This document shows, one piece after another, positions 22,073 through 38,717 of a DNA stretch of 64,000 nt. Source of the DNA: Paludibacteraceae bacterium (GTDB taxonomy: Bacteria; Bacteroidota; Bacteroidia; Bacteroidales; Paludibacteraceae); NCBI GenBank assembly GCA_017962085.1, contig JAGCWA010000012.1, positions 35,253 to 99,252 of the forward strand. Direction: 5' to 3'. The notes under the pieces are model-generated. The model ran no database searches and was not told where the DNA came from. It worked only from the letters and a program-made list of their open reading frames with translations. The first letter of the stretch is position 1; every line of letters starts with the position of its first letter. Made by a program: the position numbers and the translations under genes.

Positions 22073-22990
22073 ATGGCTGAAAAGTTGTCGAAGGGGGGAT
22101 TATTATATCTAAAATTTATGACTGAGAACCAAGAGAGATTACGCAATAACCATCCATGTTTTGCCTCTAAACCGGGCAATCTGGGAAGGATTCACTTGCC
22201 TGTCAGTCCGGCATGTAACATCGGTTGCCGTTTTTGCAGCCGCGTGCTGAACGACACGGAGAACCGCCCAGGTGTTACGGCGAAGGTGATCAAACCGGAG
22301 GAGAGCATCGCCATCCTTAGAAAGGCGCTGAAGATATGTCCAGACATCAAAGTGGTAGGCATCGCTGGACCGGGCGACACGCTGGCGACCGACACAGCCT
22401 TGGAGACCTTCCGCCTAGTGGACAAAGAGTTCCCGCACCTGCTCAAGTGTATGAGCACCAACGGATTACTGCTCGACGAGAAGGCGGACCAAGTGATTGA
22501 GTCCAAGATCGATTCGCTGACGGTGACCGTGAATGCGATCGACCCTGAGATCGAGGCGAAGCTGAACAAGTTCGTCCTCTACCATGGGAAGAAATACGAT
22601 GCTTACGAGGGCGCCAAAATATTGATCGAGAACCAGCTGAATGGTATCCGCAAGGTAGCGAAGAGTGGTATCACCGTAAAGGTCAACACCGTACTGGTGC
22701 CACGGATCAACAGGAGCCACATCGAGCAGATCGCCAAGACGGTTTCCTCCTTAGGCGCCTCCATCTACAACATCATCCCGCTGATACCGACCTACGAACT
22801 GAAAGACGAGAAAGCGCCTTTCTGCTTCGAGATCGAGGAGGCGAGGAAAAGCGCAGGGAAGTACATCGACGTCTTCCGCCATTGCAACCGCTGCCGTGCG
22901 GACGCGGTGGGCGTGCCAGGCGTGAGCGAGTTCTCCAAGGAGGTATATTCAGAAGATTTTGTAGTATCAGACACTTTTTCACATGGATGA
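22073..22990 (+). CDS. nifB: NifB-like radical SAM protein (cofactor precursor synthesis)
   Basis: NifB enzymes fuse two [4Fe-4S] clusters with a SAM-derived carbon to form the 8Fe precursor of nitrogenase cofactors. The 305-residue product has HPCF near the N-terminus, the radical SAM motif Cys48-x3-Cys52-x2-Cys55 (PACNIGCRFCSR), a further cysteine at 126 (LLKCMSTNG) and the NifB-specific C-terminal pair Cys271/Cys274 (HCNRCRADAVG). The NifX-like domain often fused to NifB is encoded separately by the next gene, which overlaps by 8 bp. It is the only NifB in the window and probably serves both D/K pairs. Confidence 0.88.
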   Translation: MAEKLSKGGLLYLKFMTENQERLRNNHPCFASKPGNLGRIHLPVSPACNIGCRFCSRVLNDTENRPGVTAKVIKPEESIAILRKALKICPDIKVVGIAGPGDTLATDTALETFRLVDKEFPHLLKCMSTNGLLLDEKADQVIESKIDSLTVTVNAIDPEIEAKLNKFVLYHGKKYDAYEGAKILIENQLNGIRKVAKSGITVKVNTVLVPRINRSHIEQIAKTVSSLGASIYNIIPLIPTYELKDEKAPFCFEIEEARKSAGKYIDVFRHCNRCRADAVGVPGVSEFSKEVYSEDFVVSDTFSHG

Positions 22991-23348
22991 CAAGAAGCAG
23001 TACAACGCATTTCGAGTAGCGGCGGCCTCGACGGACGGATACACGGTCGACACGCACTTTGGCAGAGCCACGGACTTCTACATTTACCAGTTCTTCGAGG
23101 GAGAATGGGTCTACGTGGAGAGACGTACGGCACCCCCGGTTTGTCAGAACGGAGTACACTCCAAGGACGACATGGAGAAGCGGGTGGAACTCTTCTCCGA
23201 CTGCCAATACGTCACCGCGTCACGCATCGGAATAGGAGCCAGCGCCCTGCTGACACAGAAGGGGATCGTGGCGATGGCCTTGCCGGGCGAGCTGACCGAC
23301 GCTTTAGACAAAATTTATTCTTACAACGAAATTCAAAACTTATTTTAA
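22983..23348 (+). CDS. NifX/NafY-like cofactor carrier domain protein
   Basis: A 121-residue protein of the dinitrogenase iron-molybdenum cofactor biosynthesis family. The motif VDTHFGRATDFYIYQF near residue 21-36 is the usual HFG signature, and the rest gives the alpha/beta fold of about 110 residues. Family members bind cofactor precursors and pass them between proteins. Its overlap with the NifB-like gene suggests that a fused NifB (SAM domain plus NifX domain) has been split or never fused here. Confidence 0.82.
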   Translation: MDDKKQYNAFRVAAASTDGYTVDTHFGRATDFYIYQFFEGEWVYVERRTAPPVCQNGVHSKDDMEKRVELFSDCQYVTASRIGIGASALLTQKGIVAMALPGELTDALDKIYSYNEIQNLF

Positions 23349-23377
23349 TTATTCACCCGCCACATTTCGTGGCATAA

Positions 23378-24241
<864 letters not shown>

Positions 24242-24293
24242 TTAAGAGTTAAGAGTTAAGAATTAAGAGTTTAAAGGTAAAAGTTGATAGTTT

Positions 24294-24764
24294 ATGAGGT
24301 ACAAAATTGCGGTTGCCACATCTGACGGAGTGAATGTAGACCTGCATTTTGGGTCGGCTCGGAGCTTCGACATCTACACGGTCGACGATACGGACTTCCT
24401 GAAAATAGAGACCAGGGATGTCCCAACCTCAGACGATCAGGTTCTCCCGAGCACCAACAATGTCGGTGGCGAGACTGGTTGTGGCACAAATAATGGCGAC
24501 GGCTGTAACTCCGGTTGTGGCACCGGCTGCGGAAGCAAGAACGGTTGCGACAACGGAGGAAAGTCGGAAGCCGTGGAGTCGCTTTCCGATTGCCGATGTG
24601 TGATCTGCAAAAAGATCGGGCGCAACATCCTGAAACAGTTCGAGCGCAAGGCGATATCGGTTTTCGACATCGAAATGCCTATCAAAGAGGCCTTGGAGAA
24701 GATCGTCGCCTACTACTACAAAATCGACGAGAGGAAGCTGAAGTTTAAAAATCAAGAAGAATAA
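24294..24764 (+). CDS. NifX-like protein with Gly/Cys-rich insertion
   Basis: A 156-residue protein with the NifX-like N-terminal motif VDLHFGSARSFDIY (15-28) and a C-terminal segment of the same fold (106-140). Between them is an insertion of Gly, Asn and Cys with cysteines at 63, 71, 75, 79 and 85, followed by Cys100, Cys102 and Cys105 (DCRCVICKK). The closely spaced cysteines suggest metal or Fe-S cluster binding. It sits between the H and D genes, 9 bp before D, so a role in delivering or inserting a cofactor into the D/K protein is likely. The insertion is absent from the first NifX-like protein in this operon. Confidence 0.75.
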   Translation: MRYKIAVATSDGVNVDLHFGSARSFDIYTVDDTDFLKIETRDVPTSDDQVLPSTNNVGGETGCGTNNGDGCNSGCGTGCGSKNGCDNGGKSEAVESLSDCRCVICKKIGRNILKQFERKAISVFDIEMPIKEALEKIVAYYYKIDERKLKFKNQEE

Positions 24765-24772
24765 AATTCATT

Positions 24773-26335
24773 ATGGCGAATAGAATCAATTTAAATATGA
24801 CCACCGTCGAGAACCGCGAGTTGCGGCTCGGCACGATCATCGGGTGGGACGGCTCGGCCAAGCAGCTGATCGAACAGTCTGCCTACGACGAGCGAAGCGT
24901 AAAGAAGCACGGAGGCTGCAAGGGCGCCGGACAAGGCTGTAGGCTTTGCGAGTTGCAGAGCCCGCTGAACCAAGAGACGATGTGTTCCAATGCCATCGTA
25001 CAGTGTCAGATCGGTAACCTTACCGATTGTGTCTTGATTGACCATGCGCCTATCGGATGTAGTAGTGAATGTGCGAAGTTCAACCTCTCCATGCACAAGG
25101 GATTGGAACGTCGTGGCAAGCCTCAGCAGAACACACTTAACATGAGTACCAACCTCCAAGAGAAAGACATGGTGTTCGGTGGTAGCGCCAAACTTCGTCA
25201 GGCTATTCGTATCGCCAAAGAGCGTTACAATCCGAAGGCTATCTTCATCGCCATGGCCTGCGCGACGGCCATCACGGGCGAGGATATCGACAGCGTGGCG
25301 GAGGAGTTGGAGCCAGAGGTGGGTGTGCCTATCATCCCACTGCACTGCGAGGGCTTCCGAAGCAAACACTGGAGTACCGGTTTCGACGTGGCTTTCCATG
25401 GTGTTTTGAGACAGATTGTTGAAAGACATCCGAAAAAGAAACAGAAAGATTTAATCAATATCATCGCCTTGTGGGGTACGGACTGGTTCACCGACTTGTT
25501 GAAACCGCTTGGCTTGCGGGTGAACTACCTTTTGGACTGTGCTTCGTTCGAGGAGATCCGTCAGGCTTCGGAGGCCGTGGCGACAACAACTTTCTGTGAA
25601 ACCCTTGGTGGTTACATGGGAGCTGCGTTGGAAGACCAATTTGGAGTCCCTCAAATCGACGCCCCACAACCTTACGGAATCAAAGGAACGGACGCTTGGT
25701 TGCGTGCTATCGCGAAAGTGGTAGGCAAAGAGAAAGAGGCAGAAGCGTTCATTGAAAGCGAACATAAGCGTATCGCTCCTAAGTTGGAGGAGTACCGCGA
25801 ATACTTCAAAGGCAAGTACGGAATGGTGCTCACCGGTTCCGCCTACGCCCACGGCTTGATCAGCGTGTTGGCTGAGTTGGGCATCAAGAACGAGGCCGCC
25901 CTAGTATTCCACCACGACCCAGTCTACGACGGTGCGGGTAAGAACCAAGACACCTTGAAGGAGTTGGTCGAGACCTACGGTGATATTCCTCACTACACGG
26001 TCAGCAAGACACGTGCCTTCCAGTTGCCTCAACTCTTGAAACGTGTGAAGACGGACTTCCTGATCATCCGTCACCCAGGTCTCGCCTCAGTGGCCGGACA
26101 CCTTGGTGTGCCAACCTTCGCCTTAGGCGACGAGCACATCCCTGTGGGTTACGACGGAATCCTGCGTGTGGGTGAGATCCTGAAGGGTGTGTTGGCCCGC
26201 ACGAAGTTCAACAAGACACTGCAGCGCCACGTACGCTTGCCTTACAACGATTGGTGGTTCAGCCAGACCGATCCGTTCAAGCTCACCAACGACAAGGAGG
26301 TCTTCAAGGAGATCGAAGAGCGATTGGGCGAATAA
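24773..26335 (+). CDS. Nitrogenase-like component 1 alpha (D) subunit, pair 1
   Basis: A 520-residue NifD homologue. Candidate P-cluster ligands are Cys71, Cys96 (HAPIGC) and Cys163 (ACATAITGED), matching NifD Cys62, Cys88 and Cys154. Cys275 (TFCETLGGYMG) matches the cofactor ligand Cys275, and His455 (GDEHIPVGYDG) is placed like cofactor ligand His442. NifD Gln191 and His195 are replaced by Trp200 and Phe204 in CEGFRSKHWSTGFD, so N2 reduction is unlikely. Sulfur genes all around favour a C-S bond reductase such as methylthio-alkane reductase (MarD-like). Extra N-terminal cysteines (49, 56, 59) are notable. The precise substrate is not visible from sequence. Confidence 0.85.
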   Translation: MANRINLNMTTVENRELRLGTIIGWDGSAKQLIEQSAYDERSVKKHGGCKGAGQGCRLCELQSPLNQETMCSNAIVQCQIGNLTDCVLIDHAPIGCSSECAKFNLSMHKGLERRGKPQQNTLNMSTNLQEKDMVFGGSAKLRQAIRIAKERYNPKAIFIAMACATAITGEDIDSVAEELEPEVGVPIIPLHCEGFRSKHWSTGFDVAFHGVLRQIVERHPKKKQKDLINIIALWGTDWFTDLLKPLGLRVNYLLDCASFEEIRQASEAVATTTFCETLGGYMGAALEDQFGVPQIDAPQPYGIKGTDAWLRAIAKVVGKEKEAEAFIESEHKRIAPKLEEYREYFKGKYGMVLTGSAYAHGLISVLAELGIKNEAALVFHHDPVYDGAGKNQDTLKELVETYGDIPHYTVSKTRAFQLPQLLKRVKTDFLIIRHPGLASVAGHLGVPTFALGDEHIPVGYDGILRVGEILKGVLARTKFNKTLQRHVRLPYNDWWFSQTDPFKLTNDKEVFKEIEERLGE

Positions 26336-26371
26336 TTCCTCTAAGTTTTTAACATCAAAAGAATCAATCAA

Positions 26372-27721
26372 ATGAGCGAAATACAAAAGAAGAAACCTTC
26401 GGTAATATCCGATGTCCGATATGCTTGCGCGGTGGGTGCGACCAACACCGTAGTGGCCATCAAAGGTGCAGTGCCAATCGCCAATTGTAGCCCTGGCTGT
26501 CAGCTGAAGACTACCGCCATGTTGACCTTCGAGAACGGTTTTCAAGGTAGTATCGCGGCTGGAGGCGGAAACATGCCAAGCTCCAACGCTACAGAGAATG
26601 ATGTGGTCTTCGGTGGTATAAAGACCCTCGACAATCTTATCAAATCAACGCTGAAGATCTACGACGGAGACCTCTTCGTGGTCCTGACGGGTTGTACGGG
26701 TGAGCTGATCGGCGACAACGTGCCTGACCTCGTGGGCAAGTACCAGAAGGCGGGCTACCCTATCGTCTACGCCAACACGGCCGGTTTCAAGGGCAATAAT
26801 ATCTTCGGTCACGAAACGGTGGTGGATGCCATCATCGACCAATACGTAGGGAACTACGAAGGAGAGAAGAAGAAAGGACTCGTCAACCTCTGGTTTGAAG
26901 TGCCATACTACAACCAGAACTGGCGAGGAGACTACCAGGAGCTCGCACGTATCTTGCGTGGCGCAGGCTTGGAAGTGAACGTGTTGTTCGGTCCTGAGAA
27001 CCCAGGCGTGGAGGCTTGGAAACGCATTCCTCAGGCGCAATTCAACCTGGTGGTTTCACCATGGGTGGGCGTCAAGAACGCGGAGCATCTCCAGAAGAAG
27101 TACAACCAACCCTACCTGCACATCCCTGAGATCCCTGTCGGCGAGGAGGCTACGGCTAAGTTCATCCGTCAGGTGGTGGAGTTCGCAGGCATCGACAAGA
27201 AGCAGTCCGAGGAGTTCATCAAGCAAGAGGCGGATATCTATTACTACTACCTCGAACACTTCTCCGAGTTCTTCGCGGAATATTGGTACGGTATGCCAAG
27301 CGAGTTTGTCGTGACGGCGGACGCATCCTACGCATTGGCCTACTCGAAGTTCCTGGCGGACCAGATCGGCCTGATCCCGAAACAGGTGATCATCACCGAC
27401 AAGACACCAGAGAAGTTCCGCCCCGCCATTTCGGAGTACTTCAAGAACAATATCTCCGAGGGAGTGAGCATCGATGTCGTCTTCGAAGAGGATGGCTATG
27501 AGGTGGAGAAACTGATCGAGAGCGTCGAGTTCACGTCAGGCAAGCCATTGATTCTCGGCACCTCTTGGGAACTCACCCTCGCCAACAAGAAGAACGCCTT
27601 GTTCTTTGAGATCTCGACGCCTTCGTCCGAGACGCTCATCGTCAACCGTTCCCACATCGGCTATAAGGGTGCGCTGCAATTCCTCGAAAGGATCTATAGC
27701 GCATCTGTTGGAGGAAAATAA
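26372..27721 (+). CDS. Nitrogenase-like component 1 beta (K) subunit, pair 1
   Basis: A 449-residue NifK homologue and partner of the D subunit 36 bp upstream. Cys19 (RYACAVGAT), Cys43 (CSPGC) and Cys108 (LTGCTGELIGDN) correspond to NifK Cys70, Cys95 and Cys153, so a P-cluster-type [Fe-S] cluster can be bridged between D and K. Like other nitrogenase-like K proteins it lacks the long N-terminal extension of NifK. A U-tailed terminator follows, ending this operon. Confidence 0.85.
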   Translation: MSEIQKKKPSVISDVRYACAVGATNTVVAIKGAVPIANCSPGCQLKTTAMLTFENGFQGSIAAGGGNMPSSNATENDVVFGGIKTLDNLIKSTLKIYDGDLFVVLTGCTGELIGDNVPDLVGKYQKAGYPIVYANTAGFKGNNIFGHETVVDAIIDQYVGNYEGEKKKGLVNLWFEVPYYNQNWRGDYQELARILRGAGLEVNVLFGPENPGVEAWKRIPQAQFNLVVSPWVGVKNAEHLQKKYNQPYLHIPEIPVGEEATAKFIRQVVEFAGIDKKQSEEFIKQEADIYYYYLEHFSEFFAEYWYGMPSEFVVTADASYALAYSKFLADQIGLIPKQVIITDKTPEKFRPAISEYFKNNISEGVSIDVVFEEDGYEVEKLIESVEFTSGKPLILGTSWELTLANKKNALFFEISTPSSETLIVNRSHIGYKGALQFLERIYSASVGGK

Positions 27722-28533: not shown

Positions 28534-28620
28534 CACGTAGCTTACGCCTATCATCTTATCGGAAAACCACACTAAAAACAAATACCATTATGGATAAGTA
28601 TTCCAATTTTTCTCTATTTC

Positions 28621-28651
28621 TTGCAACAAACATTCCACTATACTACATTTG
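28621..28651 (+). promoter_or_regulatory. Promoter of the leader peptide/CBS/CGL operon
   Basis: TTG (28621-28623), a 20-bp spacer and TACATTTG (28644-28651). The spacer start and the sequence after -7 (AACAAACAT, CAATATCAAAA) are shared with the promoter at 34040. Confidence 0.8.
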
Positions 28652-28676
28652 CAATATCAAAACGAAAGGCAAAGAA

Positions 28677-28871
28677 ATGGACAAGAGAATAAACATAGAT
28701 ATTACCGCAGCCCAAATGCCAGGGATGAATCTTCCCGAGGTTGCCGGAGGTCTATTCCTTTCCGAATCACATTCTATCTATTTATCAGTATCTACAAGAA
28801 TTTCTTGTCAGGCACAACTGCGATGTTCCATATGCGAGTGTTGTTGCCGATGTTGCATGCCGATGTGCTAA
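28677..28871 (+). CDS. Cysteine-rich leader peptide 1
   Basis: A 64-codon frame starting with MDKRINIDITA, 25 bp after the -7 box, and ending CSICECCCRCCMPMC: nine cysteine codons in the last 15 residues. A paralogue at 34095 has the same start, length class and end (CCCCRCCMPIC), so it is a genuine translated family. Its place at the very 5' end of a cysteine-synthesis transcript, with a conserved RNA element straight after its stop codon, suggests that ribosomes stall on the Cys codons when Cys-tRNA is scarce and so control the genes downstream. A stand-alone metal-binding peptide is the alternative. Confidence 0.75.
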   Translation: MDKRINIDITAAQMPGMNLPEVAGGLFLSESHSIYLSVSTRISCQAQLRCSICECCCRCCMPMC

Positions 28872-28879
28872 ATTCCTAC

Positions 28880-28971
28880 AATCGGACAATCACAGATCTT
28901 TAAGGTTATCCCTTTAGGGGGCAATCCACCATCATTATTTTTTCAAGTCTCGGATTCCTTTTTGTCCGATT
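28880..28971 (+). ncRNA. Conserved attenuator-like RNA element after leader 1
   Basis: A 44-nt block (28883-28926) matches the block at 34289-34332: CGGACAATCACA, 5 nt, TTAAGGTTA, n, CCC, n, TTAGGG, n, GC, n, ATC. It is bracketed by a perfect 10-bp long-range stem, AATCGGACAA (28880-28889) with TTGTCCGATT (28962-28971). The element begins 8 nt after the leader stop codon, so a stalled ribosome would mask the left arm. No U-tailed terminator is obvious, so control could act through initiation of translation or mRNA stability. Confidence 0.6.
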
Positions 28972-29044
28972 CGACAAGTTACAATTAAATAACTTATTGT
29001 ATACCATATAATTATAAAAATAATCAAACATAAATAATACCAAA

Positions 29045-30022
29045 ATGGCAGTTTATAGTAACATATTGGAAACGATTGGCAACACACCGATTGTCCAACT
29101 CTCAAGATTGAACACAGGTAAGAGTTCCCTATTCTTAAAATTGGAGAATCAGAACCCTGGGGGTAGCATCAAGGACCGCACCGGACTGAACATGATCGTC
29201 CAGGCGGAGAAGCGCGGAACGATCCGTCCGGGGCAACTCATCGTGGAGGCGACAGCAGGCAACACTGGGTTAGGCCTTGCGTTGGCCAGCCGATTGAAAG
29301 GTTACAAGCTATTGCTGGTGATCCCTGACAAGATGAGCACCGAGAAGATCAACCACCTCCGCGCACTGGGTGTGGAGACCGTCATCACCCGAAGCGATGT
29401 GGGCAAGGGCCACCCAGAGTATTACCAAGACTTGGCCGCACGGATCGCGCAGGAGCGGGGCGGTTATTACATCAACCAATTCGAGAACCAAGACAACCCC
29501 GACACGCACTTCCTAACCACAGGCCCTGAAATCTGGGAGCAGTTGGAGCACAAGGTGGACGCTGTCGTCGTGGGCGTCGGCTCAGCGGGTACATTAACCG
29601 GCTTGACAAAATTCTTCAAGACCGTCAGTCCTCAGACTGAGTTCATCCTCGCCGACCCGAAAGGCTCCGTCCTTGCGGACTACATCAACCTGAAGAAACT
29701 GCGCAACGATGCGGGTTCATGGTTCGTCGAGGGCATCGGAGAGGATTACATCCCTAAGCTGGCGGACTTCGATTTGGTGACGAAGGCCTATGAAGTGACC
29801 GACGAGGAGAGCTTCACCGCCGCCCGTCTTTTGCTGAGGGAAGAAGGCATCCTGGCAGGATCCTCCACCGGCACGCTCCTAAGCGCCGCCCTACGTTACG
29901 CACAGGAACAGACCACCCCGAAACGGATCGTCACCCTAGCTTGCGACAGCGGTAACAAATACCTCTCCAAGATGTTCAACGACGAATGGTTGAAGGAGAA
30001 AAACCTAAACGTCAAACTATAA
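29045..30022 (+). CDS. PLP-dependent cystathionine beta-synthase-like enzyme
   Basis: A 325-residue fold type II enzyme with PLP lysine in NPGGSIKDR, substrate loop EATAGNTGLG and phosphate loop GVGSAGTLTG. The C-terminal KYLSKMFNDEWL segment is typical of cystathionine beta-synthases and MccA-like enzymes, not CysK. It probably joins homocysteine with serine or O-acetylserine to give cystathionine. No regulatory CBS domain pair is present. The next gene encodes the matching gamma-lyase, so the two would convert homocysteine to cysteine. A plain cysteine synthase role is possible. Confidence 0.8.
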   Translation: MAVYSNILETIGNTPIVQLSRLNTGKSSLFLKLENQNPGGSIKDRTGLNMIVQAEKRGTIRPGQLIVEATAGNTGLGLALASRLKGYKLLLVIPDKMSTEKINHLRALGVETVITRSDVGKGHPEYYQDLAARIAQERGGYYINQFENQDNPDTHFLTTGPEIWEQLEHKVDAVVVGVGSAGTLTGLTKFFKTVSPQTEFILADPKGSVLADYINLKKLRNDAGSWFVEGIGEDYIPKLADFDLVTKAYEVTDEESFTAARLLLREEGILAGSSTGTLLSAALRYAQEQTTPKRIVTLACDSGNKYLSKMFNDEWLKEKNLNVKL

Positions 30023-30080
30023 TAAATTGACTACGTCGAACTAACGTTTCACAATTCACAATTCTTAATTCTTAATTATC

Positions 30081-31238
30081 ATGGCATACGGATTTTCAAC
30101 AAGGGCGATCCACAACGGAGAAGAGCCCGATTTCAGAGAAGGAGCAAGCGGCGACGTCGCAGTTCCTATACATTTGGCCACCACCTTCGCAAGAGAGAAA
30201 GCCAGTCATCCAACAGCAGGCTACGAATACACCCGCAGCCTCAACCCAACACGCAAAGCGTTGGAGGAGAAGTTAGCCGCATTGGACGGCGCGAAACACG
30301 GTCTCGCCTTTTCGTCAGGCTTAGCCGCCGCCTCGACACTGATCATATCACTGCTGAAGACCGGCGACAACGTGATCGGTTTCGACGACCTCTACGGTGG
30401 CACCAGACGACTGCTCAGCAACGTGTTCGTGAACTTCGGCATCACAACCACTTACGTCGACGCGACCGTTCCCGAGAACATCGAGCAGGCAATCAAGCCT
30501 GAGACGAGACTGATCTGGATAGAATCACCCACCAACCCATTGCTAAAAATCGCCGACATAAAAGCTATCGCACAAATAGCCAAGAAACACGGGCTCATCC
30601 TTGTGGTGGACAACACCTTCCTATCACCCTACTTCCAAAAACCACTTGAGTTAGGGGCGGACGTGGTGGTCTACAGCACAACCAAATACATCGGAGGCCA
30701 CAGCGACGCGTTAGGCGGATCCATCGTCCTGAACAACGATGAATTCTACCAGAAGATCGCCTACAACCAGAACGCTGTCGGTGCGGTGCTCTCACCATTC
30801 GACAGTTACCTGACCCTGCGCGGGGCCAAGACGCTCGCCGTGCGCATGGAGCAACACCAGAGGAACGCACAGGCGTTGGCCGAGTTCCTGCAACAATCGC
30901 CGAAAGTCAAGCGCGTACTCTATCCCGGTCTGAAAGATCACCCGCACCACGACATCGCGGCGGCGCAGACCACAGGCTTCGGTGGCGTCCTCTCGTTCGA
31001 ACTGGAGGGAACACTCACGGACGCCGAAAACTTCCTGTCGAAGCTGAAACTCTTCTCGACCGCAGAGAGTTTGGGTGGCGTGGAAAGCTTGGCGGAGATA
31101 CCAGCCATCATGACACACGCCTCCGTGCCGAAGGAGGTGCGCGAGAAGAACGGAATCTCCGACACGCTGATCCGCATCTCGGCAGGCATAGAAAACACGG
31201 AAGATCTAATCAACGATTTCCGCCAAGCATTGAAATGA
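30081..31238 (+). CDS. Cystathionine gamma-lyase/synthase family enzyme
   Basis: A 385-residue Cys/Met metabolism PLP enzyme. The cofactor lysine lies in VYSTTKYIGGHSDALGG, and YEYTRSLNPTR and SSGLAAAS are conserved family segments. Placed 58 bp after a CBS-like gene, it most likely cleaves cystathionine to cysteine (MccB/CGL). The family also includes cystathionine gamma-synthase and O-acetylhomoserine sulfhydrylase. The last would be needed to reuse methanethiol from a methylthio-alkane reductase, so this is the one place in the window where that role could sit. Confidence 0.85.
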   Translation: MAYGFSTRAIHNGEEPDFREGASGDVAVPIHLATTFAREKASHPTAGYEYTRSLNPTRKALEEKLAALDGAKHGLAFSSGLAAASTLIISLLKTGDNVIGFDDLYGGTRRLLSNVFVNFGITTTYVDATVPENIEQAIKPETRLIWIESPTNPLLKIADIKAIAQIAKKHGLILVVDNTFLSPYFQKPLELGADVVVYSTTKYIGGHSDALGGSIVLNNDEFYQKIAYNQNAVGAVLSPFDSYLTLRGAKTLAVRMEQHQRNAQALAEFLQQSPKVKRVLYPGLKDHPHHDIAAAQTTGFGGVLSFELEGTLTDAENFLSKLKLFSTAESLGGVESLAEIPAIMTHASVPKEVREKNGISDTLIRISAGIENTEDLINDFRQALK

Positions 31239-31280
31239 TACACTAAATAATTATTTATTAATCTGCAAAAAAGAAAAATT

Positions 31281-32108
31281 ATGGGCAAGATCAGACCCGA
31301 ATTTCAGGAGAACGTTTCAGAAACGCTCTTGATTCCTCTCTTCATGAGGGCTAAAGAATCCAAGGAAAAAGATCCTATCATCACGGACAAGACGTCGGAA
31401 GATATCCTTTCGATGGTAGATTATGACTTTAGCAAATTTTCTGCAGATGAACGATGTCAACTATGTGTGTCATTTAGAACTAAATATTTCGATAACGTAT
31501 TGAAGAACTTTGTGAACAAATACGACGATGCGGTGGTGGTGCTCGTCGCATGCGGACTGGACCCGCGCATTGAGCGTGTCGCCATCAGCAAGAAGTACCA
31601 AGCCTACGAGTTGGACTTCCTGGACGTGATCAATCTGAGGCGGCAGTTCCTGCCAGAATCGTCCGACAACAAATATCTCACAGGCAATATCACAACCGAC
31701 GGGTGGATCAAATCCATCAAGGAGGAGCACCCCAACGGGCACTTCCTGTTCATCCTAGAGGGGGTGGCGATGTACCTGACAGAGGAAGAGGTGAAGCGGG
31801 TTTTCCACAACATCGACGCGAACTTCGAAAACGCGGAAGTGTACATGGAGCGCATGAACAAGTACTTGAGCGAGCGTACCAACCTCCACGAATCCGTCAA
31901 GAACACCAAAGCCTCTTTCCGCTGGGGGTGCGACAATCCGAGGCAAATCGAGCAATGGGTCAAATCCTTTAAGCTGACGGACGAGTATTACTACTACTCG
32001 GACGAGTTCAAGAAAATACGGAAGCGTATAGGCTTAAAGGCTCTACCGCTCAAATTCCTTCCCAAGCAAAGCCGTTCACTCGGCATCTGGGGATATGTGA
32101 AAAGTTGA
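31281..32108 (+). CDS. SAM-dependent methyltransferase, leucine carboxyl methyltransferase (LCM/Tcmp) family
   Basis: A 275-residue class I methyltransferase of the LCM superfamily: N-terminal SETLLIPLFMRAKES, the SAM site VVVLVACGLDPRIER, and the acidic ELDFLDVINLRR plus LEGVAMYLTEEEV segments. Its substrate is unknown. It lies 42 bp after the CGL-like gene and before the ThiF-like gene in a sulfur operon, so O- or S-methylation of a small sulfur metabolite is a reasonable guess only. S-adenosylhomocysteine produced by it could feed homocysteine to the two preceding enzymes. Confidence 0.75.
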   Translation: MGKIRPEFQENVSETLLIPLFMRAKESKEKDPIITDKTSEDILSMVDYDFSKFSADERCQLCVSFRTKYFDNVLKNFVNKYDDAVVVLVACGLDPRIERVAISKKYQAYELDFLDVINLRRQFLPESSDNKYLTGNITTDGWIKSIKEEHPNGHFLFILEGVAMYLTEEEVKRVFHNIDANFENAEVYMERMNKYLSERTNLHESVKNTKASFRWGCDNPRQIEQWVKSFKLTDEYYYYSDEFKKIRKRIGLKALPLKFLPKQSRSLGIWGYVKS

Positions 32109-32207
32109 AACATCAGCTAAAATTAGAGAGAATTGTTTAATAACTGGACTAAATTTGTGTTCGCAATGGATTAAGAAAAATTCTTTATAACTAACTAAGA
32201 GTGAACT

Positions 32208-33011
32208 ATGTTTGATTTTAGCGAAGAGGAAATCAATCGATACTCCCGCCACATTCTCTTGAAGGAGGTGGGTGTGGAAGGTCAGGAAAAGATCCGGAAC
32301 GCCAAGGTTCTGGTTGTCGGGGCGGGAGGACTCGGTTCGCCAGTCATCCTATACCTGGCGGCCGCCGGCGTCGGAACAATAGGCATCATCGACGGTGATG
32401 CGGTAGACCTAAGCAACCTGCAGCGTCAGATCATCCACACAACCCCCGACGTGGGCTACTCGAAGGCCCTATCCGCCAAGGAGAAGGTCAATGCGCTCAA
32501 CCCGCACGTCAATGCGATCGCCTACCAAGAGTTTCTAAAGGCGGACAATGCGCTGGATCTGTTCAAGGGGTATGATTTCATCGTGGACGCGACGGATAAC
32601 TTCCCCGTAAAATACCTAATCAACGACGCTTGCGTCCTGACGGGCAAACCATTCAGCCACGGGGGTATCTTCCAGTTCGAGGGACAGACGTTCACCCATG
32701 TCCCGGGCAGCAACTGCTACCGATGCCTCTTCGACGCGCCACCAGAATCCGCACCCTCCTGTGCACAAGCGGGAGTACTCGGAGCCATCGCTGGAATGCT
32801 GGGAACGATACAGTCCGCCGAGGTGCTCAAATACATCACGGGCGTGGGGGAACTGCTGACGGACCAACTCCTCACCTTCGACGCGAGAAACATGGATTTC
32901 AGGAAGATGTCCATCCCCAAACGAGACGACTGTCCCGTGTGCGGCAAGCAACCCACCATCAAGCAACTCATTGAATACAAGCAGGTAAGCTGCGAACTAA
33001 AACAACACTAG
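32208..33011 (+). CDS. ThiF/MoeB family E1-like adenylyltransferase
   Basis: A 267-residue protein that activates the C-terminus of a small sulfur carrier by adenylation. Nucleotide site VVGAGGLGSPVILYLAAAG (near 37-55), catalytic Cys region PSCAQAGVLGAIAGMLG, and zinc ligands from CYRC and CPVC. No rhodanese domain is attached. No ThiS/MoaD-like carrier gene with a GG end was found nearby. It is followed after 4 bp by a DsrE-like gene and then a TusA-like gene, together a sulfur-relay module. Confidence 0.85.
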   Translation: MFDFSEEEINRYSRHILLKEVGVEGQEKIRNAKVLVVGAGGLGSPVILYLAAAGVGTIGIIDGDAVDLSNLQRQIIHTTPDVGYSKALSAKEKVNALNPHVNAIAYQEFLKADNALDLFKGYDFIVDATDNFPVKYLINDACVLTGKPFSHGGIFQFEGQTFTHVPGSNCYRCLFDAPPESAPSCAQAGVLGAIAGMLGTIQSAEVLKYITGVGELLTDQLLTFDARNMDFRKMSIPKRDDCPVCGKQPTIKQLIEYKQVSCELKQH

Positions 33012-33015
33012 AATC

Positions 33016-33501
33016 ATGGCGGACAATCAACAAAAAAAACTCTCAATCATCGCCTTTTCGGGCGAATTCGACAGACTCACCGCCGCCTTCACCCTCGCGA
33101 CAGGGGCTGCGGCGGTAGGATATGAGGTGAACATATTCTTTACATTCTGGGGCCTTGACGCCATCAAGCGGAAGACCGGCAGAAGCCTCGTGGGTGGTAC
33201 GTTTCTAACTAAGATCTTCGGTTTTTTGATGGGCGGACTGAAGAGCACACCCACCAGCCGATTCAACTTTTTCGGCGCAGGTCCCCGAATTTTTAGATTC
33301 CTGATGAGAAAGAACAACGTCGCGACACTGGAGGAACTGGTGGAAGCCGCCATCGCCCTCGGCATCAACCTCTACGCCTGCGAAATGGCGATGCACGTTC
33401 TCGGTCTCAAGCAATCGGACTTCATCCACGAAGTGAAGGACACGCTCGGAGTCGCATCCTTCCTGGAAATCTCTGAAGGTGGACGGACCCTATTCATCTA
33501 A
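33016..33501 (+). CDS. DsrE/DsrF-like (DrsE_2) family protein
   Basis: A 161-residue protein of the DsrE-like peroxiredoxin group. Features seen are FSGEFDRLTAAFTLATGAAAVGY-like N-terminal fold segments, a hydrophobic lid region with FGFLMGGL, and a conserved cysteine in NLYACEMAMHVLG that can carry a persulfide. Relatives are often encoded beside TusA and rhodaneses and move sulfane sulfur. It starts 4 bp after the ThiF-like gene. Confidence 0.82.
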   Translation: MADNQQKKLSIIAFSGEFDRLTAAFTLATGAAAVGYEVNIFFTFWGLDAIKRKTGRSLVGGTFLTKIFGFLMGGLKSTPTSRFNFFGAGPRIFRFLMRKNNVATLEELVEAAIALGINLYACEMAMHVLGLKQSDFIHEVKDTLGVASFLEISEGGRTLFI

Positions 33502-33562
33502 CCTTTAGATTTTCACGTACAGCTATTCTTTCTTAACACTCAACTCTTAATCATAAACTCAA

Positions 33563-33787
33563 ATGGCAACTCATACATTAGACATAACGAAGGAGCATTG
33601 CCCGATGACCTTCGTCAAGACGAAACTCAAATTAGCTCAAATCGCCCAAGGAGACATACTCGAAGTGCTTCTGCTTGAGGGTGAGCCCCTTAATAACGTG
33701 CCCAAATCCGCAGCCGAACAAGGCTATCACGTGATAGGGATCTCCCACGTGGAAGGCAATGTGCATAAAGTAATCATCAAGAAATAA
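33563..33787 (+). CDS. TusA/SirA-like sulfur carrier protein
   Basis: A 74-residue protein with the TusA-type motif EHCPMTFVKTKLKL (Cys13 is the persulfide carrier; the Pro of the usual CPxP is replaced at the fourth position) and the typical two-layer beta-alpha fold. It would accept sulfur from, or give it to, the DsrE-like partner 61 bp upstream. It is the last gene before the porin/MetNIQ promoter region. Confidence 0.85.
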   Translation: MATHTLDITKEHCPMTFVKTKLKLAQIAQGDILEVLLLEGEPLNNVPKSAAEQGYHVIGISHVEGNVHKVIIKK

Positions 33788-33936
33788 TATTTACGTTCAC
33801 GCTTCCCAGAAGGAAATCTCACATAAACATCGTCCGGCGCAACCGTTTTTTCCCCGATTTTCATACTTATTAATCCGTATGTGGGAAGGAATCAGCCAAG
33901 ATTTCAAGCGACACTTTTTCACCACGAGTTCCCTTC

Positions 33937-33953
33937 ACAGACAATTATTTTAC
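33937..33953 (+). promoter_or_regulatory. 17-bp palindrome-related operator, copy 3 (porin/MetNIQ operon)
   Basis: ACAGACAATTATTTTAC aligns with the other three copies (AGA near the left end, TTTTAC right arm). Its last base is 86 bp before the -33 region. A second partial copy ends at 33991. The remaining TusA-to-leader gap (33788-34094) is AT-rich with no gene. Confidence 0.55.
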
Positions 33954-34039
33954 TACATTATACGAAATATTATTTTATTGGAATATTTTACTACAATAAC
34001 ATATACATATAGGTAAATACTCTAAAATTTTCATTTTTC

Positions 34040-34070
34040 TTGTAACAAACATACATTTGCACTATCTTTG
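34040..34070 (+). promoter_or_regulatory. Promoter of the leader 2/porin/MetNIQ operon
   Basis: TTG (34040-34042), a 20-bp spacer and TATCTTTG (34063-34070), very like the promoter at 28621. Confidence 0.8.
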
Positions 34071-34094
34071 CAATATCAAAAATGAGAGGTAAAA

Positions 34095-34277
34095 ATGAAT
34101 AGGACAATTAACATACATACTACTTCGAACTCAATGCTTGGGAAGAACCTTCCCAAGATTGACGAGCGCCTATTCCATGCCTCAAACTATTCAGAATCTA
34201 TAAAAATTTCTCGGCGGACACAGATGCGATGTTCCATGCACTGTTGTTGTTGCCGATGTTGTATGCCGATCTGCTAA
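34095..34277 (+). CDS. Cysteine-rich leader peptide 2
   Basis: A 60-codon frame beginning MNRTINIHTTS and ending CSMHCCCCRCCMPIC, with eight cysteine codons among the last 15 residues. It shares start, spacing from the promoter, C-terminal pattern and downstream RNA element with the leader at 28677. Its transcript leads to a porin and a methionine-type ABC importer, so cysteine shortage sensed as slow decoding could raise uptake of sulfur compounds. The middle of the peptide differs between the two copies while the ends are kept. Confidence 0.75.
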   Translation: MNRTINIHTTSNSMLGKNLPKIDERLFHASNYSESIKISRRTQMRCSMHCCCCRCCMPIC

Positions 34278-34288
34278 CATTCCACATT

Positions 34289-34373
34289 CGGACAATCACA
34301 AAACGTTAAGGTTAACCCATTAGGGTGCGATCTTCAAGCTCTATTTTTCCAAAAATACGGGTTTATCTTGTCC
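34289..34373 (+). ncRNA. Conserved attenuator-like RNA element after leader 2
   Basis: The block 34289-34332 matches 28883-28926 in length and sequence at most positions (CGGACAATCACA, TTAAGGTTA, TTAGGG). GGACAA (34290-34295) can pair with TTGTCC (34368-34373), the same closing stem position as in copy 1. Confidence 0.55.
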
Positions 34374-34527
34374 ATATTTTAATCAAAAGCGAAATAATAC
34401 ATTGTATATAAAGTAATTGCAATTACATAGCCCATAAAAAAACTTAGGTTGAACAGAAAAAAACGATATCGATTATGGAAATATGTTGTAACAATAAGAA
34501 AGGGTAAGCAAGAGGAAATCATGCGAC

Positions 34528-34605
34528 GGGTTCGGAGGAGGGACCTCCCATAAGCTTCGGGGATTTAACCCACATTTCATGAGAGTCTCCCCAAAACTTC
34601 TCTCA
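34528..34605 (+). promoter_or_regulatory. Structured 5' leader before the porin gene, possible switch
   Basis: Two alternative foldings are visible. One pairs GGGTT (34528-34532) with AACCC (34567-34571) around a GGAGG/CCTCC hairpin, plus TGAGAG (34580-34585) with CTCTCA (34600-34605). The other pairs GGGGA (34559-34563) with TCCCC (34588-34592) and excludes both. It lies 50 bp before the porin start. I could not assign it to a known riboswitch class. Confidence 0.4.
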
Positions 34606-34655
34606 CAGAAAGTTAAGAAGAAATAAAAGTCAAAAACGATTAAAGACAGAACACA

Positions 34656-36050
34656 ATGAAAAGAAATATATTTTACAAGGCATTAACATTATTCTTACTG
34701 TACACGGCTACAGTGAATGCGCAAGAGGTCCAATCGGAAGCCATCAAGAACCAAGAAGCGACGGAGGCAGTCGTAAGTGCGGAAAGCGCCTCCTCGAAGG
34801 ATACCAAGAGGCAAGAACCCATTGAGACGATCAACAAAGATATCACTTCAGAGACCGCCAAGGATCTGATACCAACAGTAAGGTTCGGGGACGAAATAAA
34901 AGTAAAATTCGGAGGTTTCCTTAGAGCCGAATATTACGTGGACAGTCGCGAAATCGTAGGAGGCGGAGACGACCTCTTCGGATTCTTCCCTGAGGACAAA
35001 GTCTATGACAAAAACGGTGAAGACCTAAACGCAGTGGTAAGACAGAACTTCACCACAGAGGCCACACGATTCACAGCAACCGTAGATGGACCAAAACTAG
35101 GCAGGGCAAGTTCCAAAGCCTACGTCGAATTTGACTTTTCAGGTGGCAACACCGTGAATCTCAGGTTACGACAGGCGTGGGCGAAATTCGTCTGGCAGAA
35201 GGGCGAACTGCTTTTCGGAAAGGCATGGAGTCCATTCTCCGACATTCCATTCCCTTACGTAGCCGCATTGCACATTGGAGTGCCCTACCGTCCATTCAAC
35301 AGAGGCGAGCAGTTGCGATATACATTTAAACCGACGGAACGACACAGCTTCGTAGTGGCAGGTGTCTACCAAACCGAACACAAATCGGTGTTGGAGGAAT
35401 CATCCAATAGTGACATCCGTCAGAATCCTACGCCAGAGTTCCACTTGCAATGGCGTTATACCTCACCTTCGTTCAGTACAGGACTGCTCAGTGAATTTAA
35501 GAGCGTGCGTCCTGCCACGAAGGTCACCAACGATGCCGGCGACATATTCAAAACAGACGAAAAGGTGAATTCCTTCGGTTTAGGCTATTACATTCAGGTT
35601 ATATCAGGACGTTTTGGCCTCAAGACAGGTGGTGTATACGGACAGAATCTAAGCGAATACTTCCAACAAGGCGGATACGCCGTGAAATCAATCGACGAAC
35701 GCACAGGCAAACGCACATACTCCACGTCGAAGGTCACCTCCTACTGGATCAATCTTTCGTACGGGAAGACTTGGGCGCCGAGTGTGTTCGTGGGTTACTC
35801 GAAGAATCTGGGATTCGACGACGACATTTTAGAAGGAGGCAGATTCTTCGGAAGATGGCAGAACGTGGACCATCTTGTCAGAGTTGCCCCATCAATAAAG
35901 TTCTCGCATAAACAATGGTTGTTACAAGCCGAACTAGACTACAACATAGCCGCTTACGGAACTGTGGACTATGCGGATCGCGGGAAGGTGAAGGACACCC
36001 ATAACATATCAGGAGTCAGAGGTCTGTTAGCTGCCACATTCTTCTTCTAA
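34656..36050 (+). CDS. Outer-membrane porin
   Basis: A 464-residue exported protein with a signal peptide ending TATVNAQ, a Glu/Ala/Ser-rich linker to about residue 70, then alternating beta strands (FGGFLRAEYYVDSRE, LRLRQAWAKFVWQKGELLFGKAWSPF) and a C-terminal LLAATFFF with terminal Phe, as expected for a 16-strand-type barrel. The family is found in Bacteroidales beside transport genes. Being first in the operon with MetQ-MetN-MetI, it probably lets small sulfur compounds across the outer membrane. Confidence 0.8.
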   Translation: MKRNIFYKALTLFLLYTATVNAQEVQSEAIKNQEATEAVVSAESASSKDTKRQEPIETINKDITSETAKDLIPTVRFGDEIKVKFGGFLRAEYYVDSREIVGGGDDLFGFFPEDKVYDKNGEDLNAVVRQNFTTEATRFTATVDGPKLGRASSKAYVEFDFSGGNTVNLRLRQAWAKFVWQKGELLFGKAWSPFSDIPFPYVAALHIGVPYRPFNRGEQLRYTFKPTERHSFVVAGVYQTEHKSVLEESSNSDIRQNPTPEFHLQWRYTSPSFSTGLLSEFKSVRPATKVTNDAGDIFKTDEKVNSFGLGYYIQVISGRFGLKTGGVYGQNLSEYFQQGGYAVKSIDERTGKRTYSTSKVTSYWINLSYGKTWAPSVFVGYSKNLGFDDDILEGGRFFGRWQNVDHLVRVAPSIKFSHKQWLLQAELDYNIAAYGTVDYADRGKVKDTHNISGVRGLLAATFFF

Positions 36051-36101
36051 ATCCAATCATCATAAAAACTCATTGTCTAACATTTAAAAAATTTGAATCG
36101 T

Positions 36102-36977
36102 ATGAAAAAGACTAAATTGATCACAATCGCATTGCTTATAGTATACTCATTCATCTCTTCATCATGCGGCAATGCATCCAAGGAATCCAGTGCAGACAGA
36201 AAAGATATCTCCGTAGGCTTCTCGCCTGGTCCTTATTCAGACCTCTTCAAAGCGGCCATCCAACCTGCCCTTGAGAAGAAAGGCTACAACGTGAAGGTGG
36301 TGGAATTCACAGACTGGGTGACTCCGAACCTCGCTTTGGCGAACAATGAAATAGACGCCAACATTTACCAGAACACCCTGTACAGGCAGAATTTCTGCGA
36401 CACGAAGGGCGTTGACCTGACGGCCACCTTCTCCGTGCCTACAGCGGCTCTCGGATTATATTCCGACAAGTACAAGGCGCAGAATGTTGACGAACTGAAG
36501 GCGCAACTGCAGCCGGGCGGAATCGTCTCCGTGCCTAATGATGCGGTCAACCTGGCCCGCGCGTTACGCTTCCTCCGCTCGATCGGCTTGCTCACGATAA
36601 AATCCACGGTCGACGACAAAACGGCGACGGAGAACGACATCGACGAGAACCCGTTCGAACTCAAGATCGTTCCATTGGAAGCCGCCCAGTTGCCTCGTTC
36701 CCTGGATGGTAGCACGCTCGCGGTGATCCCAGGCAACTACGCCATCTCTTCCGGGCTGAAGCTCTCCTCCTCCATTGTCGGCGAGGCTTTGCCTTCAGAA
36801 CTACTCATCTGGTTTGTCGTCAACACGAAAGATGCAAATGCCCAATTCGTGAAGGATGTGCAGGAGGCTTACGAATCCGAGGATTTCAAGAACTATTTCG
36901 AGGATCCAGCACATGAATATGACAGATTCCAGCGCCCGCAGTGGTATGTGGATAAGTGGAATATACAAAACAGATAA
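36102..36977 (+). CDS. metQ: MetQ-type substrate-binding lipoprotein
   Basis: Binds methionine (or a related compound) in the periplasm for the MetNI importer. Start taken at the ATG at 36102. It has a lipoprotein signal with lipobox SSSC followed by Gly, then the NlpA/MetQ fold: VGFSPGPYSDLFKAAI, DWVTPNLALANNEIDANIYQ, VSVPNDAVNLARALRFL, LAVIPGNYAISSGL. Length (291) is normal. A hairpin separates it from metN. Confidence 0.92.
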   Translation: MKKTKLITIALLIVYSFISSSCGNASKESSADRKDISVGFSPGPYSDLFKAAIQPALEKKGYNVKVVEFTDWVTPNLALANNEIDANIYQNTLYRQNFCDTKGVDLTATFSVPTAALGLYSDKYKAQNVDELKAQLQPGGIVSVPNDAVNLARALRFLRSIGLLTIKSTVDDKTATENDIDENPFELKIVPLEAAQLPRSLDGSTLAVIPGNYAISSGLKLSSSIVGEALPSELLIWFVVNTKDANAQFVKDVQEAYESEDFKNYFEDPAHEYDRFQRPQWYVDKWNIQNR

Positions 36978-36994
36978 AACACAATTGTTTTTCA

Positions 36995-37026
36995 TAGATG
37001 CTTGATCGATACGGGTCAAGCATCTA
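36995..37026 (+). promoter_or_regulatory. Intercistronic hairpin between metQ and metN
   Basis: TAGATGCTTGA (36995-37005) pairs perfectly with TCAAGCATCTA (37016-37026), loop 10 nt, no U-run. This is a usual way to stabilise the mRNA of a binding protein that is needed in excess over its ATPase. Confidence 0.65.
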
Positions 37027-37051
37027 TTCACCCATCAAAAAGAGTTTAGAG

Positions 37052-38068
37052 ATGATAAAATTCGACAAAGTAAGTGTATCATTTTCAGACAAGAAGGACC
37101 ATACGGTGAATGCGGTCAGGAACGTCTCCTTCGAGATAGGAAAGGGAGAGATATGGGGAATCGTAGGCACGAGTGGCGCAGGCAAGAGCACGCTTCTCCG
37201 CACGGTCAACCAGCTGCAACTCCCCACTGGAGGTCGAACGATAGTGGATGGTGTGGACATAAGTAGCCTATCTGGGAAAGAATTGGCGAAGTTCCGCCAC
37301 TCCATCGGTATGATTTTCCAGCAGTTCAACCTTGTCAGCACCAAGACAGTGGCACAGAACGTGGCTTTCGCCATGGAGATAGCGGGGCGAAGCCAAGAGG
37401 AAATTAAACAACGAGTGCCCGAACTGTTGGAGCTTGTCGGCTTGGCTGATCGCGCGGATGTATATCCGAACACTTTAAGTGGCGGACAGAAACAGCGCGT
37501 GGGAATCGCCCGCGCCGTGGCCAACAACCCCAAGATTCTGCTCTGCGACGAGGCCACTTCGGCATTGGACCCGGAAACCACCAACGACGTGTTGGAACTC
37601 CTAAAAAAGATCAACGTCAAGTTCGGCATCACGATAGTGCTTATCACCCACGAACTGGATGTGGTCAAGAAGATTTGCCAACGAGTGGCTGTGATGAACA
37701 AAGGCGAGGTGGTGGAGTTAGGCGAAGTGTTTGATGTCTTCACGAAACCACAGCACGAATTCACGAAGACGCTCCTGTCGCACACCTTCGACCTCGATCT
37801 CCCTGAGCGCCTGACGCAAGACCACACGAAGCCTTTGGTGAGGATCGTATACAATGGCGAAAAGGCGGAGGATTCAATCGTTTCCAACGTGGTGAAGCAT
37901 TACGCGATAGACGTGAATATCCTGCACGGCAAGATTGAATATATCAACGACAAACCTTTCGGCATACTGATTGTCCAATTGATCGGTGCGCAAGACGAGT
38001 TGGCCCAAGGATTAGATTATTTGAGTAAGAACACTTATAGAACGGAGGTGATAAATGAACGAAACTAA
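37052..38068 (+). CDS. metN: Methionine ABC transporter ATP-binding protein
   Basis: ATPase of the methionine importer. From the ATG at 37052 the product has 338 residues: Walker A GTSGAGKST, signature LSGGQKQRVGIARA, Walker B ILLCDEATSALDP, H-loop THELDVV and a C-terminal NIL-type regulatory domain (about 265-338) that binds methionine in homologues. An upstream in-frame extension to 36998 would lie in the hairpin and is rejected. It overlaps metI by 14 bp. Confidence 0.94.
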   Translation: MIKFDKVSVSFSDKKDHTVNAVRNVSFEIGKGEIWGIVGTSGAGKSTLLRTVNQLQLPTGGRTIVDGVDISSLSGKELAKFRHSIGMIFQQFNLVSTKTVAQNVAFAMEIAGRSQEEIKQRVPELLELVGLADRADVYPNTLSGGQKQRVGIARAVANNPKILLCDEATSALDPETTNDVLELLKKINVKFGITIVLITHELDVVKKICQRVAVMNKGEVVELGEVFDVFTKPQHEFTKTLLSHTFDLDLPERLTQDHTKPLVRIVYNGEKAEDSIVSNVVKHYAIDVNILHGKIEYINDKPFGILIVQLIGAQDELAQGLDYLSKNTYRTEVINERN

Positions 38069-38717
38069 CTATTCCGAACTGGCAAGCAACTTGTTGCCAG
38101 CGTTCGGGGAAACATTGGAAATGTGCGGAATAGCACTATTATTGGCAATCATATTGGGCATTCCATTAGGCGTGTTGTCTTACATCACGAGCAAGTGCAG
38201 CATCTGTCAAAACAGGTTCGTCAACTTATTGGTCAGCTTCATCCTGAACGTCATCATGTCCACTCCGTTCGTCATCCTGCTCGTGCTGCTGTTGCCATTC
38301 ACGAAGTTTGTGGTCGGCACCTCCATAGGACCCGAGGCCGCATCGGTACCGTTGGGTATCGTAGCCATCGCCTTCTACGCACGTTTGGTGGAGGGCAATC
38401 TGCATGGCGTGGACAAAGGCGTGATAGAGGCTTCTGTGGCCATGGGAGCCACATGGTTCAAGATCGTCACCAACGTCTTGTTGCCAGGCGCTTTCAGTGG
38501 CATGATCCGTGGACTAACCGTCTTGGCCGTCACGCTGGTGGGCTATTCGGCCATGGCCGGCATAGTGGGCGGCGGTGGCGTCGGCGACCTTGCCATACGG
38601 TTCGGCTACTATCGCTACCAAACAGATGTCATGATCATTACGGTGCTCTTACTGATCGGGTTGGTACAAATCATCCAGACAATCGGGGAAAAGGCTTCCC
38701 AAAAAGCACAAAAATAG
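38055..38717 (+). CDS. metI: Methionine ABC transporter permease
   Basis: Inner-membrane permease (220 residues, five hydrophobic segments) of the MetNI complex. The EAA-like loop is seen as GVIEASVAMGATWFKIVTNVLLP, and STPFVILLVLLLPFTK and AGIVGGGGVGDLAIRFGY are typical of MetI. It is the last gene of the operon; the 46-bp terminator hairpin at 38757 follows. Confidence 0.93.
   Translation: MNETNYSELASNLLPAFGETLEMCGIALLLAIILGIPLGVLSYITSKCSICQNRFVNLLVSFILNVIMSTPFVILLVLLLPFTKFVVGTSIGPEAASVPLGIVAIAFYARLVEGNLHGVDKGVIEASVAMGATWFKIVTNVLLPGAFSGMIRGLTVLAVTLVGYSAMAGIVGGGGVGDLAIRFGYYRYQTDVMIITVLLLIGLVQIIQTIGEKASQKAQK

Follow-up and report, generated by a model that had tools for sequence, protein, structure and literature searches.

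Attenuators of the trp and his type carry, between promoter and operon, a short frame rich in codons for the regulating amino acid. For cysteine (Cys), the poly-Cys short open reading frames of mycobacteria are presented, in the accessible parts of the sources, as cysteine-responsive attenuators (Canestrari et al. 2020, Mol Microbiol 114:93, via PMC9094748, PMC4633059), and poly-Cys leaders in mycobacteria are noted as such in the available text of PMC4633059. PMC1262725 (in part) also predicts Cys leaders ahead of the cys operons of P. acnes and Mycobacterium and, in Bifidobacterium longum, ahead of cbs, and the uORFC-8-2 motif before cysS in Rhodobacterales has been read as ribosome-mediated attenuation (PMC8632094, in part). 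In more general terms, leader-peptide attenuation before amino-acid operons is described in a flavobacterium (PMC9723704), and leader-like short frames are mentioned in Bacteroides (PMC7366714), as far as the available sections of both papers go. Here we describe two short Cys-ended frames ahead of sulfur genes in a Paludibacteraceae bacterium of the order Bacteroidales (GenBank assembly GCA_017962085.1, contig JAGCWA010000012.1, forward-strand positions 35,253 to 99,252). This whole stretch of 64,000 nucleotides (nt) is called the window, and the two frames are very probably cysteine-codon regulatory leaders controlling those sulfur genes. An earlier note on this DNA had pointed to the mycobacterial attenuators, which the sources bear out as far as their accessible parts go (PMC1262725, PMC4633059, PMC9094748), and had supposed a Bacteroidales version with long leaders to be undescribed. 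Cysteine-codon leaders are already known from Actinobacteria and Rhodobacterales; a literature search that covered few subscription papers found no published cysteine leader in Bacteroidota.

Leader 1 lies at 28677..28871 on the + strand (64 codons plus TAA; full peptide MDKRINIDITAAQMPGMNLPEVAGGLFLSESHSIYLSVSTRISCQAQLRCSICECCCRCCMPMC, C-terminal end CSICECCCRCCMPMC) and leader 2 at 34095..34277 on the same strand (60 codons plus TAA; full peptide MNRTINIHTTSNSMLGKNLPKIDERLFHASNYSESIKISRRTQMRCSMHCCCCRCCMPIC, C-terminal end CSMHCCCCRCCMPIC). The coordinates given for the two frames in the earlier note are correct, and both do end in CCCRCCMPxC. Its opening motif M-x-R-x-INI holds for leader 2 (MNRTINI) and not for leader 1, which reads MDKRINI, and its count of 8–9 Cys in the final 15 codons becomes 8 in each frame (28824..28868, + strand, in leader 1). 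Across all six frames of the whole window, at least five Cys in the last 15 codons occur before three stops (8, 8 and 5), whereas 60 random first-order Markov windows of the same composition yielded 16 stops with 5, four with 6 and none with more than 6. The two frames are confirmed as real and far from chance. That they are chance frames without function is almost inconceivable: short frames are common and the translation of the leaders is a prediction from sequence, but the random windows reach at most 6 Cys against 8 found twice, and the frames are conserved in three genera despite changed N-termini. The two leaders are paralogous, as had been proposed, and the likeness is present at the DNA level from 5' of the promoter to about 45 nt past the stop codon. 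From the stop of leader 1 to the start of the next gene there are 173 nt, and from that of leader 2 to the next gene 378 nt, with a further conserved stretch between.

The Bacteroidota promoter consensus is TTG/TAnnTTTG, and pattern matches to it precede both frames: promoter 1 at 28621..28651 (+ strand; TTG 28621-28623, TACATTTG 28644-28651) and promoter 2 at 34040..34070 (+ strand; TTG 34040-34042, TATCTTTG 34063-34070). Measured from the end of the TAnnTTTG box, the distance to the ATG is 25 nt in leader 1, the value that had been claimed for both, and 24 nt in leader 2, so a short 5' untranslated region is expected. Of 15 leaders checked, 8, belonging to several lineages, have such a box 22–28 nt 5' of their ATG. 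In L114, L115, L117 and L187 (L and G numbers denote loci and genomes) there is no TAnnTTTG box 10–60 nt 5' of the leader start and the leader lies closely 3' of a nitrogenase-like gene; for both reasons these leaders may be transcribed from upstream.

Both window leaders have the arrangement of the trp/his-type attenuators, with a short frame rich in Cys codons between promoter and operon, but the Cys run reaches the stop, a canonical terminator is lacking in the window, and the frames are several times longer than trpL. Like the mycobacterial frames they are short, end in a Cys cluster and precede genes of cysteine metabolism; those frames are described in the accessible text as starting leaderless mRNAs, whereas here the promoter box ends 24–25 nt before the ATG, and the present family consists of frames of 60–67 amino acids in Bacteroidota. 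In the predicted actinobacterial leaders, too, the accessible part of PMC1262725 places the Cys run close to the stop codon; a conserved terminator hairpin is likewise missing, and the target in B. longum, cbs, is of the same kind. They belong to another phylum, and their authors found no conserved hairpin, whereas here candidate hairpins stand near the stop and a copy is found on a transport operon. In the uORFC-8-2 motif, too, a short upstream frame contains Cys codons, but these are two tandem codons near position 14–15, followed by a clear intrinsic terminator and aimed at cysteinyl-tRNA synthetase (PMC8632094, in part).

The first gene after leader 1 encodes a cystathionine beta-synthase-like pyridoxal phosphate (PLP) enzyme (CBS; 29045..30022, + strand; best NCBIfam model TIGR01137, below cut-off, and best PDB matches to CBS), and the leader goes together with this gene across genomes. 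A leader profile built from 8 leaders was searched in 200 genomes of the family. It gave matches in 67 of the 200 at E<=1, and at E<=1.5e-17 26 places in 19 genomes of three genera, the next match having E = 0.0026. The genomes with CBS at an identity of at least 91% are the identical set of 19, and in these the leaders always stand ahead of CBS or of the leader-2 operon. Among the 16 genomes of the window's own genus, CBS at an identity of at least 92% is present in 11, each time with a leader ahead of it; the first gene of the leader-2 operon is present at 75% or more in 11 of 16, and leader 2 in 7 of these 11. Because leader 1 accompanies CBS in three genera and leader 2 occurs in one, the best reading of leader 2 is that the cassette of promoter, leader and post-stop RNA was copied onto a second operon. 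L113 combines the leader-1 peptide with the other type of post-stop RNA, which suggests recombination. CBS proteins 100% identical to that of the window come from records of ruminant-associated Bacteroidales, some of them labelled Paludibacteraceae.

Beyond these near relatives, the Cys-rich end alone recurs. Five further family genomes have CBS at 67–76% identity, and two of them carry Cys-ended leaders whose sequences are unrelated to the leader family, ending CCCTVNCRL in G199 (L035) and CCCCQCSM in G189. A scan of named genomes covered the best 80 CBS loci of a longer list, 13 of them in Bacteroidales. Among these 13, seven have the family leader or, in L032/L033, a weaker Cys-containing one, L035 and L036 have other leaders, and four (L034, L037, L038 and L039) have no convincing leader. 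Outside Bacteroidales, 0 of 67 loci among the best 80 listed have a frame within 400 nt whose final 20 codons include 5 or more Cys, and none of 8 other order-level CBS loci has at least 5 Cys. The Cys counts of the weak candidates (4 in L032/L033 and 3 in L036, in the last 20 codons) are not above background, since 4 of the 67 outside loci reach 4; their candidacy rests on promoter spacing and hairpins. The search for CCCRCCMP before sulfur genes of other Bacteroidales that the earlier note had suggested came out negative: with one mismatch it matched in 7 of 295 genomes of the order, six of them other than the window's own with one mismatched site each, and reversed-pattern controls matched in 2 genomes, so these sites are taken as chance. 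The order-wide leader profile returned the own genome and two matches with internal stops (E 0.001 and E 0.004), likewise dismissed as chance; the order sample contains few genomes of the window's family.

What is conserved in the leaders bears on whether codons, a nascent chain or a finished protein is selected. In the alignment of the 8 leaders from three genera, C50, C55, C56, C57, R58, C59 and C64 are invariant (six Cys plus one Arg, confined to the final 15 residues); one Cys changes to Ser or Ile, and the N-terminal part has no invariant residue. The MP of CCCRCCMP is replaced by KS or AS in other leaders and, where present, lies inside the candidate hairpin around the stop codon. Because the Cys are kept, the N-terminus is not, and the Cys-rich end alone recurs farther away, the pattern favours, as far as sequence can indicate, selection on Cys codons over a conserved protein. 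A sensor formed by the nascent peptide, with CCCRCC in the exit tunnel arresting the ribosome on metal, sulfide or redox state, would account for the invariance of CCCRC and the last Cys and for the Arg codon retained alongside, but the distant leaders do without CCCRCC, and the CCGAU found at the Arg codon takes part in an in-frame RNA hairpin in L183 and L192, so RNA pairing may explain part of the conservation; we consider this sensor unlikely. Very unlikely, in our judgement, are small Cys-rich proteins acting in trans, for instance by binding metal. A length of 60–67 amino acids is long for a leader and the C-terminus resembles a metal-binding cluster, but invariant N-terminal residues and any Pfam or NCBIfam match of the peptides are missing, the RNA around and past the stop is conserved, the frames in the 19 genomes are never found away from CBS or the leader-2 operon, and outside near relatives the Cys run recurs by itself.

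GCCGAU in the window, or GCCAGU in L113, L114, L115, L187 and L009, occupies one fixed position, 13 nt before the stop codon ends, and can pair with a stretch 7–9 nt past the stop; between the two types, both partners of two adjoining pairs differ. In the window this forms candidate hairpin A1 around the stop of leader 1 (28860..28885, + strand; CCGAU 28860-28864 with AUCGG 28881-28885) and the weak, four-pair candidate A2 in leader 2 (34266..34291, + strand; CCGA 34266-34269 with UCGG 34288-34291). Shuffle p values for hairpin A are 0.024 for leader 1, 0.23 for leader 2, 0.0007 for L113, 0.016 for L114, 0.017 for L115 and 0.0027 for L009. The predicted pairing is suggestive only, because the sequences are related, the types may stem from one post-stop replacement, and other 6-mers of the Cys run score equally in both window copies; a Fisher combination of the p values is not taken as support, the sequences being related. 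Past the stop, structure B1 (28880..28971, + strand; AAUCGGACAA 28880-28889 with UUGUCCGAUU 28962-28971) has its 5' arm in common with A1, and structure B2 lies at 34290..34373 (+ strand; GGACAA 34290-34295 with UUGUCC 34368-34373, then AUAUUUUAA). Folded over stretches chosen to end past structure B, the post-stop RNA has z -2.17 in leader 1 (4/200 shuffles) and z -3.45 in leader 2 (0/200).

Other lineages place their hairpins differently. In L183 and L192 the corresponding hairpin sits inside the Cys run and a second one adjoins the stop. At the two distant CBS loci with unrelated Cys-ended leaders, a matching hairpin begins at the stop codon; L035 and L214 have a common two-step hairpin there whose inner stems differ (z -3.85 and -1.17, respectively). 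L036 has a terminator-like helix and U run directly 3' of the stop, and the terminator-like hairpins of L035, L214 and L036 have loops longer than 3–8, as does B2 in the window. Three further ideas were dropped: folds of L114, L115 and L117 pair the Cys run with the start region of CBS, but the window copies and L009 lack this pairing, and with it went translational masking; L109 has not retained the downstream 3:4 terminator considered for leader 1 (GACAA after B1); and a duplex-energy test of the run against post-stop RNA reached 0.05 in 2 of 15 leaders (L009 and L036) and is not used as support. Rfam had no match in the window at gathering score and none relevant at E<=5.

In the proposed mechanism, the leader would be translated from the 5' end of the operon transcript. 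Scarce Cys-tRNA would stall the ribosome in the terminal Cys run, whereas with ample cysteine it would arrive at the stop codon and leave. The state of the ribosome would set the folding or shielding of the RNA around and after the stop, which would decide whether RNA polymerase proceeds into the sulfur genes, presumably by termination, so that low cysteine would lead to their expression. In lineages with a hairpin from the stop codon, its 5' arm would most simply be covered by a ribosome that pauses at the final Cys codons. In the window the post-stop structure begins 8–12 nt past the stop in both copies, and therefore hairpin A would compete with B there, or the stop would be Rho-dependent. 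In such a Rho-dependent output, a sub-model of Cys-codon attenuation to which we give somewhat less than an even chance, the stalled ribosome would shield or expose a Rho loading site past the stop, and no hairpin devoted to switching would be needed. It would suit a window without canonical terminator and the excess of C over G in the 100 nt past the stop of all 19 leaders considered (15 of them tabulated), and Rho has been proposed for actinobacterial poly-Cys leaders likewise without terminators (PMC1262725, in part); the C excess is mild, however (0.15–0.30 versus G 0.11–0.17), and the hairpins 3' of the stop in L035, L214 and L036 look like terminators.

Masked folding, in which the RNA 3' of a ribosome set at each of the last 15 codons was folded for 13 leaders, gave outcomes that differ among leaders. 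In L113, L115 and L117 hairpin A is predicted to be favoured when the ribosome stalls early in the run, and the post-stop hairpin to be blocked once it stands on the last Cys or the stop. When the Cys codons of ECCC occupy the A site, leader 1 gives 0.19–0.78 for A and 0.12–0.80 for B, and B is about 1 past the Arg codon.

Several results weigh against cysteine-codon attenuation, or at least against a uniform switch. In masked folding leader 1 switches only partly; B is preferred at almost every ribosome position in leader 2 and in L109, which is nearly identical to leader 1; and L036 would be pushed towards its terminator by a ribosome halted at the first Cys codon. Both window copies of hairpin A are weak and have competitors of equal score; the duplex-energy test is not significant in 13 of 15 leaders; and folds of a fixed stretch from -9 to +95 have z +0.80 in leader 1 (no better than shuffles), -1.39 in leader 2 (hardly better) and above -1.3 in 9 of 14 leaders. 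A scan of 28550-34700 for canonical intrinsic terminators with loops of 3–8 found 0 on the + strand and a single match on the - strand (shuffles mean 7.1), and none stands ahead of the first gene in the window. Among genomes, leader 2 is lacking in 4 of 11 same-genus copies of its operon, three family genomes with CBS at 67–76% have no Cys leader by the scan, and several Bacteroidales have none ahead of CBS.

Cysteine attenuation, which the earlier note had called classic, stands as the best reading given the kept Cys codons, the CBS link in 19 of 19 genomes and the unrelated Cys leaders at two distant CBS loci; 'classic' is too strong because a canonical intrinsic terminator is lacking and alternative RNA folds are predicted inconsistently. 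There is good support for the sensing element; for the switch, masked folding of the window copies gives no uniform picture. It is possible, though we hold it doubtful, that Bacteroidales have an attenuator layout of their own, with the Cys run 0–2 codons from the stop and a hairpin at or next to the stop whose 5' arm the waiting ribosome would cover, a layout on which unrelated leaders and hairpins converged and whose cassette one genus copied to a second operon. Such spacing fits L113, L115/L117/L187, L183, L192, L036, L035 and L214; the two window copies, L009 and L032/L033 do not fit it.

The genes behind the leaders agree with the claim that both head sulfur operons, under names that are best matches below NCBIfam curated cut-offs for CBS, the cystathionine enzyme and the Met genes: the context is transsulfuration for leader 1 and methionine-type uptake for leader 2. 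CBS is followed by a cystathionine gamma-synthase/lyase family enzyme (30081..31238, + strand) and by methyltransferase-like, ThiF/MoeB-type and DsrE-like proteins. The first large gene after leader 2 (34656..36050, + strand) has no match in Pfam, NCBIfam or PDB sequences, and its product is a putative outer-membrane porin-like protein; MetQ-, MetN- and MetI-like transporter genes follow at 36093..38717 (+ strand; 36093-36977, 36998-38068 and 38055-38717). Between the leader-2 RNA and the putative porin, 34440-34655 shows near-identity with L139, against 83% identity for the protein; it contains the tiny frame MEICCNNKKG plus stop (34475-34507) and a G-rich inverted segment, and has no Rfam match. 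Two nitrogenase-like gene sets (NifH-, NifDK/EN-like) flank the sulfur genes at 22073-27721 and 43937-46701, and we take them to resemble methylthio-alkane reductase clusters for sulfur salvage. Four same-genus genomes have a different, structured-looking 5' region ahead of the leader-2-type operon (L144:1238-1487, L146:1238-1487, and on the - strand L147:2852-3101 and L145:2852-3101), with a consensus fold of -33.7 kcal/mol in which 3 of 56 pairs changed on both sides and no Rfam match in L144, L145 and L147; it is possibly a new riboswitch-like element.

If this reading holds, cysteine-codon control of sulfur genes would extend to Bacteroidota. The natural variants, with three RNA types and several leader sequences, make the mechanism testable, and the contrast within one genus between 7 genomes with leader 2 and 4 with other upstream RNA would represent a natural swap of control elements.

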